Of a stretch of 64,000 bases of DNA, positions 19,926 to 57,489 are shown in pieces; positions within the stretch are counted from its first letter, which is position 1, and each line of letters begins with the position of its first letter. Made by a program: the position numbers and the translations under genes. The DNA lies in NCBI GenBank assembly GCA_016215445.1, contig JACRJL010000001.1:62001-126000 (forward strand), in the 5' to 3' direction. Origin of the DNA: Candidatus Roizmanbacteria bacterium. Lineage in GTDB: Bacteria; Patescibacteriota; Microgenomatia; UBA1406; GWC2-37-13. The notes under the pieces were generated by a model. That model saw only the letters and a list, made by a program, of their open reading frames with translations. It searched no databases and was not told the origin of the DNA.

Positions 19926-20087
19926 GGTATCAATTTTTATCACACGAGAGTCTCACCACTTCGTGGTCCCCTCGAAAGTGAAAAAATTGTTCCCACCTCG
20001 TCTTCAGAGTAGAAAGCGAAGATATCAAATTTTTTTCACTTTTGGGGTGTAGGGGTCCCCACTGTGACAAAAAATTTCGGTATCAAG
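19926..20087. repeat. Two tandem inverted-repeat units between convergent genes
   Basis: Unit 1 pairs GGTATCAATTTTTATCAC (19926-19943) with GTGAAAAAATTGTTCCC (19978-19994). Unit 2 pairs GATATCAAATTTTTTTCAC (20021-20039) with GTGACAAAAAATTTCGGTATC (20064-20084). Both share a GATATC/AATTTTT/CAC pattern and lie between the sortase and PEGA stops, so they could serve as a two-way terminator. The right copy of the 22-bp direct repeat (20013-20034) overlaps unit 2. Confidence 0.6.
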
Positions 20088-20090
20088 CTT

Positions 20091-41832: not shown

Positions 41833-41845
41833 AACCTCCGGGGTT
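41833..41845. repeat. REP-like palindrome, left of RAYT
   Basis: AACCTCCGGGGTT, stem AACC/GGTT, followed by a TTGGGTTTA...TAAACCAAG hairpin (about 41850-41878) and TTTTGTAG-ATTATAGTC (41891-41908). The same set recurs after the transposase gene. Confidence 0.65.
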
Positions 41846-41945: not shown

Positions 41946-42596
41946 ATGAGAAGAAAAGAAATTTTTAAAGACGGTGAACTATATCATATTTTAAATAGAA
42001 GCATATCTGGTTTTAATATTCTTAAAGATATTAATAACTGCTGGAGGTTTTTAGAACTATTAGACTACTACAATAATAGATTAGTTGACTGTAGTTTTTC
42101 TCGTTTTCTTAAAGAAAATAATAAATATCAATATGAAAATCTTTTAATACCGAAAGAATTTCCATTTGTTAAGTTTATCTGTTTTAGTTTAATGCCGACA
42201 CATTATCATTTATTGCTTAAAATACTTGATGAGAATAATTTTTCTTATTACATTTCTAATGTAGAGAATAGTTTCAGTCGTTTTTTTAATATAAAATTCA
42301 AAAGAAAGGGTCCTTTATGGGAATCAAGGTTTAGAGCAGTGAGAATAAAATCTGAAGAACAACTTTTACACGTTTCTCGTTATATTCATCTCAATCCAGT
42401 AACTGATTATTTAATTGAAAAGGCCGAAGATTGGAAATTTTCTTCTTATAGAGATTTCATTAATAAGAAGGGATTTCTAAATGAAATAATTAGCGAAGTA
42501 TCGATTAAAAACCCAAAGACCTATCAACAATTTGTTGAAAATCAGAAGGATTACCAACGAAAACTAAAAATGATTAAAAAAACGATTTTAGAATAG
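41946..42596 (+). CDS. REP-associated tyrosine transposase (RAYT, Y1/HUH family)
   Basis: The 216-residue protein is an IS200-like Y1 transposase of the RAYT type. The HUH motif is FSLMPTHYHLLLKI, the probable catalytic Tyr is in SYYISNVENSFSRFFN, and the family hallmark VSRYIHLNPVTDYL follows GPLWESRFRAVRI. It makes a single-strand nick through a 5'-phosphotyrosine. The gene is complete, and matching palindromes lie on both sides (41833 and 42627; 41891 and 42723), which are the likely substrates. It has a lower GC content than most neighbours by eye. It may be active or domesticated. Confidence 0.9.
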   Translation: MRRKEIFKDGELYHILNRSISGFNILKDINNCWRFLELLDYYNNRLVDCSFSRFLKENNKYQYENLLIPKEFPFVKFICFSLMPTHYHLLLKILDENNFSYYISNVENSFSRFFNIKFKRKGPLWESRFRAVRIKSEEQLLHVSRYIHLNPVTDYLIEKAEDWKFSSYRDFINKKGFLNEIISEVSIKNPKTYQQFVENQKDYQRKLKMIKKTILE

Positions 42597-43501: not shown

Positions 43502-43616
43502 GTATTCAGTATAGAGTATTCAGTATAGAGTATTCAGTATAGAGTATTCAGTATAGAGTATAAAGAAGAAACAAAAAATACTGGATACTGGATACTCAAT
43601 ACTCTATACTTAAAAC
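43502..43616. repeat. Heptad repeats in opposite orientations between pth and the GalT-like gene
   Basis: The left arm is (GTATTCA GTATAGA) four times, starting 2 bp from the pth start codon. The right arm (about 43582-43616) read in reverse is GTATAGA GTATTGA GTATCCA GTATCCA GTAT. The arms can form a long hairpin with loop AAGAAACAAAAA. This fills the whole 116-bp divergent intergenic region. Confidence 0.85.
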
Positions 43617-56635: not shown

Positions 56636-56923
56636 ATGAACGCTTGTTATCACTGCGGAAAAACAGTTCTTTACGGTAGATCACATACTCACCATCGAGG
56701 TGTTGCCGGTGGTCGTTGGAAAAAACGAGCACCCAAAACTCAAAGAATTTTTAAAGTCAATTTTATCCGCCTGGCTATTTTGGAAAGTGGCAAGGAAAAA
56801 CAAGTGAAACTTTGTGCTAAGTGTTTGAAGAGAGTCAGAAAAGACATGATTGATGGGGTTGAGCCGTTTCTTACCTTGGCAAATACAGGTACAAAAGCAA
56901 AAGCTCCTGCCGTAGTAAACTAA
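56636..56923 (+). CDS. rpmB: 50S ribosomal protein L28
   Basis: The 95-residue protein is bL28: NACYHCGKTVLYGRSHTHHR has the CxxCGK zinc pair, GRWKKRAPKTQRIFKVNFIR is the W-K-x-R-x-P core, and VKLCAKCLKRVRKDM has the second Cys pair. It is a structural protein of the large subunit. The C-terminus is extended by about 15 residues (GTKAKAPAVVN). Its stop overlaps that of the convergent def gene by 4 bp. Confidence 0.95.
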   Translation: MNACYHCGKTVLYGRSHTHHRGVAGGRWKKRAPKTQRIFKVNFIRLAILESGKEKQVKLCAKCLKRVRKDMIDGVEPFLTLANTGTKAKAPAVVN

Positions 56924-57489
56924 ATTTCGTAGGGTTTGAGTTCGTCTCCAACTTCTTTATAAATAGGCTGATTTTGTTCCATTGACCTTTGAGTAAAAAC
57001 CTTTCCTTGCAGATGGTCTATTTCGTGTTGGATTATAGTTGCTTCAAAACCGGAAAACCATTTTTTGTGGCTTTTTCCATTGACATCAATATATTCCAGA
57101 TAAATCTTTTTTGCTCGTTTTACCGATCCCCAGATACGGGGAATAGAGAGACAGCCTTCTAATTTTACAGGTTGACGTCGTGATTTTTTTGTAGGGGCGT
57201 GATTCATCACGCCCTTTTTTTCGGGCGCAATAAATTGCTCCCCTACAGTCTTTATTATTTTCGGATTGATAAATACGTTTGTTTTGGCTTTTTCAGATGA
57301 TTTAATAATGAATAGAGACAGGTTTTGCCCGATTTGATTTGCCGCCAACCCGACTCCTTTCGGATCTTTTTGGGAGGAGAGGGTTTTTTCCATTTCAATG
57401 AGAAGATTTTTGATTTTTCCGTCAAGTTTGACAACAGGTTTGGTGGGCGAGGAAAGAATACTGTTTGGGACAGTTATGATTTTAAGCAT
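56920..57489 (-). CDS. def: Peptide deformylase with a repeat-encoded insertion
   Basis: The 189-residue protein has all three deformylase motifs: KGVGLAANQIGQN (GxGLAAxQ), KLEGCLSIPRIWG (EGCLS) and ATIIQHEIDHLQGKVF (HExDH). It removes the formyl group from nascent proteins using a metal held by Cys and two His. Between the third strand and EGCLS it has an extra segment, GEQFIAPEKKGVMNHAPTKK, not found in ordinary deformylases. The segment is encoded by a 56-bp palindromic element (57191-57246) kept in frame. TATAAT lies 5 nt before its ATG. Confidence 0.93.
   Translation of the reverse strand: MLKIITVPNSILSSPTKPVVKLDGKIKNLLIEMEKTLSSQKDPKGVGLAANQIGQNLSLFIIKSSEKAKTNVFINPKIIKTVGEQFIAPEKKGVMNHAPTKKSRRQPVKLEGCLSIPRIWGSVKRAKKIYLEYIDVNGKSHKKWFSGFEATIIQHEIDHLQGKVFTQRSMEQNQPIYKEVGDELKPYEI
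57191..57246. repeat. 56-bp GTAGGGG palindromic repeat element inside def
   Basis: The ends are GTAGGGG and CCCCTAC. Inside are hairpins GTGATTCATCAC, GCCC-TTTTTTTC-GGGC and GCAATAAATTGC. The element is typical of interspersed palindromic repeats and is translated within the deformylase. Confidence 0.85.

Follow-up and report, generated by a model that had tools for sequence, protein, structure and literature searches.

The sole peptide deformylase gene (def) found in the 0.94-Mb genome of this Candidatus Roizmanbacteria bacterium carries a palindromic element within its reading frame. The locus raises the questions of what this element is, how it came to lie in an enzyme gene, and whether it has become protein sequence. 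The reading considered highly likely here is that a GTAG-tagged REP pair, probably moved by a Y1 transposase, entered def with the frame kept and is translated into a disordered loop that the enzyme tolerates. All coordinates below refer to the window, i.e., the whole 64-kb stretch of DNA that was analyzed.

The element and its host gene

The following features were distinguished at the locus:

57489..56920, minus strand: def, peptide deformylase, 189 aa, sole copy found in the genome (ORF, Pfam, NCBIfam)
57190..57247, minus strand: whole element, a head-to-head (inverted) pair of GTAG-tagged REP hairpins with the core GTAGGGG...CCCCTAC at 57191-57246 (sequence and fold)
57191..57214, plus strand: REP unit 1, GTAG followed by GGGCGTGAT-TC-ATCACGCCC, a perfect 9-bp stem with a 2-nt loop and three basal G-C pairs
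57215..57222, no strand: linker TTTTTTTC separating REP units 1 and 2
57223..57246, minus strand: REP unit 2 on the opposite strand, GTAG followed by a hairpin of the GGGAGCAAT-TT-ATTGCGCCC type with one stem mismatch
57190..57246, minus strand: 19 translated codons (GTA...ACA), V82-T100, VGEQFIAPEKKGVMNHAPT (in-frame ORF)
57193..57221, plus strand: terminator-like hairpin with a T run after it, in antisense to def, past the end of the gene for ribosomal protein L28 (consensus match only; possibly a side effect)

The outer palindrome occupies 58 nt (57190-57247; TGTAGGGGCGTGATTCATCACGCCC-TTTTTTTC-GGGCGCAATAAATTGCTCCCCTACA) and extends by 1 base on each side beyond a 56-nt core. This core, which begins with GTAGGGG at 57191 and ends with CCCCTAC at 57246, coincides with the element delimited in the first-pass annotation. 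Three internal hairpins had been claimed there; two are present, one perfect (9 bp with a 2-nt loop) and one with a single mismatch. The GTAG foot of unit 1 stops where GGG starts, GTAG lies on the outside of the inverted dimer (the HH arrangement), and three consecutive G-C pairs (GGG/CCC) form the stem base in both units, as in TnpA_REP subclass 2.4. Complementarity between the two arms amounts to 76%. Besides the two hairpins, a third helix results from the outer 8-bp pairing; RNA of the minus strand favours one long hairpin.

Inverted-repeat scoring alone missed this element in the window because of its mismatches, and RNA folding was used instead. The coding-strand RNA folds at -34.9 kcal/mol (z -8.0), with none of 200 shuffles as good; as DNA, the element has a fold z of -4.2. 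A scan of 64-nt stretches ranked it first among the RNA folds of the 64-kb window, the runner-up reaching -27.4.

The def product was assigned by PF01327 (Pfam, E=2e-40) and by TIGR00079 (NCBIfam, above the cut-off), and the genome has one def match only. Deformylase genes are in general essential, and this one, as the single def found, is presumed to be so. The placement of the element in frame within this 189-aa ORF, first proposed from the letters alone, was confirmed, as was the presence of about 19 extra residues before EGCLS: the insert, V82-T100, ends ten residues ahead of E111 of this motif. The motifs GVGLAANQ, EGCLS, and QHEIDH are intact, as had been stated, and their key residues are invariant in a 36-sequence alignment. 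The deformylases compared from related genomes, within the genus and beyond it (30 aligned; about 70 in a larger set), lack V82-T100; those of the genus match on both flanks. Among the matches listed, PDB deformylases likewise align on both flanks and skip these residues. The exact empty site was not found in any close relative, the nearest deformylase being about 70% identical.

An AlphaFold2 model built with 36 aligned relatives has a mean pLDDT of 87, mostly >90 in the core, and all Foldseek matches listed for it are deformylases; the product thus has the fold as well as the three catalytic motifs of this enzyme. Residues 85-102 have pLDDT <50 and lie between two well-predicted strands, so that the insert is predicted to be a disordered loop on an intact core. 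V82-T100 should be translated as a floppy 19-residue loop that the enzyme tolerates, and we infer that it is translated in the cell and is neutral.

Related elements and their reading frame

A pattern search of the own genome found no second GTAGGGG pair, and the further copies expected there by the first-pass annotation are not present in this form. The def element is a REP by its structure and its relatives and, because it stands alone, not a repeat in its own genome. Further copies were found in related genomes. The strict pattern TGTAGGGG...CCCCTACA, with the same pattern read backward as a control, occurs in 6 of 72 genomes of the family (control, 0), in 13 of 372 of the class (control, 4), and in 17 of 379 of the phylum (control, 7). 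Copy counts below are based on this strict pattern and on the loci fetched.

The stems vary among copies yet remain palindromic. In the tgt gene of a congener the element is in frame and encodes a similar peptide, VGAQFIAPKNKGLINQTPTRK. A Gallionella contig carries, outside a gene, a pair with the whole first arm in common, and the arm of REP unit 1 was also found in viral contigs, where no convincing in-frame gene use was seen. The absence of copies anywhere had been named as evidence against the capture of a repeat; closely similar pairs were instead found in other genomes, at unrelated sites. Together with the congeneric deformylases that lack the insert and the in-frame copy in tgt, these kin elements support capture of a repeat as coding sequence. 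They also bear on the idea that no mobile element was involved and that palindromes arose in a hypervariable loop by chance or by local DNA slippage. The length and sequence of the loop do vary greatly among relatives, but the failure of all 200 shuffles to fold as well speaks against this idea, and the similar pairs at unrelated sites, including the congener tgt and the Gallionella contig, refute it; we regard it as scarcely credible.

About 42 copies were examined. In 20 of them the element is in frame in an ORF, mostly one identified by Pfam; the remaining copies are located outside genes or at their ends. The in-frame hosts are as follows:

def: one copy, own genome
P-type ATPase: two congeners, same site
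tgt: one copy, congener
trxB-like reductase: one copy
669-aa ORF without a Pfam match: one copy
CAP-domain protein: one copy, near the N terminus, a weaker case
RadA-like protein (radA-like): one copy
LeuRS (twice) and an HHH/SLBB protein: all in a single genome
RecG, UvrA, GatB, and transketolase: one copy each
Y1 transposases: five copies

Some of the Y1 matches fall just below the Pfam cut-off, being split by the insert itself. No out-of-frame copy breaking a gene was seen among the approximately 42, and flanking ORF pairs tested by Pfam were different genes in all five cases. Copies are almost always read as GTA GGG (Val-Gly), three transposases using a second frame (Cys-Arg-Gly), and the third frame holds a TAG stop. 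By our estimate, about one in five random insertions would stay open (one third by length, with two thirds of the frames stop-free), i.e., about four out-of-frame or stopped copies would be expected per open one. That the copies inside genes are all open is as expected if broken genes are purged. Only translatable inserts appear to be retained in genes, and positive selection need not be invoked.

The P-type ATPase inserts (L039, 1500-1560; L040, 1500-1557) occupy the same site in two congeners, with lengths of 60 and 57 nt; their stems differ but are palindromic. Either a single inherited copy underwent paired changes, or insertion took place twice.

The reading frame also bears on whether the insert reaches the protein. 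The very stable mRNA hairpin could be taken to mean that the transcribed insert is excised from the RNA or bypassed by the ribosome at the hairpin, giving a deformylase without the 19 residues. An insert that is skipped has no need to keep the frame, yet each of the 20 copies located in ORFs preserves it and is free of stops, and no out-of-frame copy was met within a gene, which makes removal or skipping very improbable.

Retention of the element as nucleic acid is also unlikely, if less so. According to this explanation, transcription converging from the L28 gene would be halted at an intrinsic terminator, made up of the plus-strand hairpin and its T7 run, and so kept from proceeding antisense through def. 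A terminator-like hairpin (57193-57216) followed by a T run is indeed found 270 nt past the L28 stop codon, and REPs are commonly located directly downstream of genes (PMC3733652). The T run, however, is only the linker, and the linkers of other copies often have no T run; the region contains four terminator-like sites against 2.3 in shuffles; and the other in-frame copies are spread over many different genes. Translation of the element as part of the deformylase is the reading retained below.

REP class and candidate transposases

In GTAG-tagged REPs, a 5' GTAG directly adjoins a short-looped hairpin whose stem has 6-13 bp, and the HH inverted dimer with GTAG outside is their commonest dimer type (Di Nocera, 2013; PMC3733652). 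The def element has the GTAG foot, the short GC hairpin, and the head-to-head heterodimer in common with these REPs; unit 1 conforms fully, and unit 2 does so in its foot, its stem having a single mismatch. GTAG REPs also occur in frame in housekeeping genes, where they add about 20-30 residues (PMC3733652), as the def element does. Classical REPs, in contrast, are mostly intergenic and present in many copies, whereas here a single copy lies inside def in a 0.94-Mb genome.

The long REPs of TnpA_REP subclass 2.4 combine GTAG with three basal G-C pairs (PMC6006769). This subclass corresponds to RAYT group 4, with the signature NHxH, WQ, YIxNNP (Quentin, 2018; PMC6006769). Canonical long or double-foot REPs of the subclass, which include pairs and 30-bp double-foot forms (PMC6006769), share both features with the def element; the latter differs in lying in an unrelated enzyme gene, in a genome where no recognizable subclass 2.4 transposase was found. 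The two Y1_Tnp genes that were found there (motifs of the window copy, MPTHYH and YIHLNP) look like subclass 2.1, which has no REPs. We regard the def element as working like a subclass 2.4 REP and do not claim its membership by cognate enzyme.

The window Y1 transposase (41946-42596) is REP_Tyr_transpos-like, below the NCBIfam cut-off, and is flanked by AACCTCCGGGGTT repeats near 41834 and 42628. Beside the other own Y1 transposase (L036, 1240-1281) lies a REP-like palindrome of another type, GTAGGCCCATACAACC...GGTTGTACGCGGCCCTAC.

Transposases of the NHxH/WQ type were found in four congeners (G002, G014, G015, and G017). In relatives, nearly all Y1 transposases of the MPNHxHGII type carry an in-frame GTAG palindrome after the HuH motif. 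Novelty of RAYTs with an internal REP was considered and dropped, as subclass 2.4 transposases have already been described with a REP palindrome inside themselves (PMC6006769). The RAYT model was matched in 30 of 38 chosen genomes, with no clear link between the presence of a Y1 transposase and that of the element.

The following course of events is proposed. In this lineage, def would have acquired a GTAG-tagged REP pair (a head-to-head heterodimer, BIME/REPIN-like), transferred in single-stranded form, in all likelihood by a Y1 HUH transposase of the TnpA_REP (RAYT) subclass 2.4 type. A RAYT-type enzyme responsible for this transposition would have been lost later or would have acted before this lineage split. 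The insertion would have left the reading frame intact, at a point of the protein where a surface loop joins one strand (end near residue 82) to the next (start near residue 110). Translation would then give 19 disordered residues that the enzyme tolerates, and for this reason selection would not have removed the element.

Other palindromes in the same loops

The deformylase loop contains other palindromes in related genomes: one of the AAGGACTGTCCTT type in G017 and G010, AACCTCCGCGGTT in G014, AAGGTCTGACCC in G016, and GAACCCTGAGGGTTC in G054. For these five genomes, none of 100 shuffles reached the observed score; the loop palindrome of G002 is weaker (1 of 100). Elsewhere in these def genes, only two scoring intervals reach >=11. 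The palindrome AACCTCCGCGGTT of G014 is similar to the AACCTCCGGGGTT repeats described above. The loops of the P-type ATPase and tgt vary likewise among relatives.

The own genome also harbours 15 copies (E<1e-5) of another palindrome family, about 76 nt long. Members of this family lie in frame in tgt (two copies), queA, a heavy-metal P-type ATPase, TatD, and a Glu/Leu dehydrogenase. An intergenic copy is located at window 20013-20088. The own tgt (tRNA-guanine transglycosylase; L145/L169) has three long in-frame inserts, two of which are 93% alike in DNA. The top-scoring inverted repeat of the window, at 43522-43610, is an intergenic array of AGTATAGAGTATTC in tandem and inverted copies.

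In Rickettsia palindromic elements (RPEs), in-frame palindromes in many genes of a reduced genome are kept as extra residues; the def element is alike in being an in-frame palindrome that adds residues in a reduced genome. REP-like RPEs of R. conorii have a CGTC foot (PMC3733652), whereas that of the def element is GTAG. As to spread through a genome, the GTAG family has one copy in the own genome and the 76-nt family occurs in frame in many of its genes; by analogy, the latter may be called RPE-like in effect. Intragenic REPs and RPEs are already known; less expected is the same deformylase loop with unrelated palindromes in at least five relatives. Titles and abstracts of the literature on Patescibacteria/CPR with intragenic palindromes gave no relevant match. 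On balance, we lean towards the view that the genus remodels proteins via several unrelated in-frame palindrome families that land repeatedly in the same loops (deformylase, tgt, and P-type ATPase).

If this is true, several repeat families would be feeding an RPE-like system that expands the proteins of a reduced genome. In def, presumed to be essential, selfish-type DNA would have turned into protein sequence, and this in a lineage whose genome is so small that little spare DNA is to be expected. With its different palindromes across related species, the deformylase loop offers a natural series for testing the harmless addition of unrelated DNA to an enzyme, and this series also bears on how REPs survive where nearly all sequence codes.
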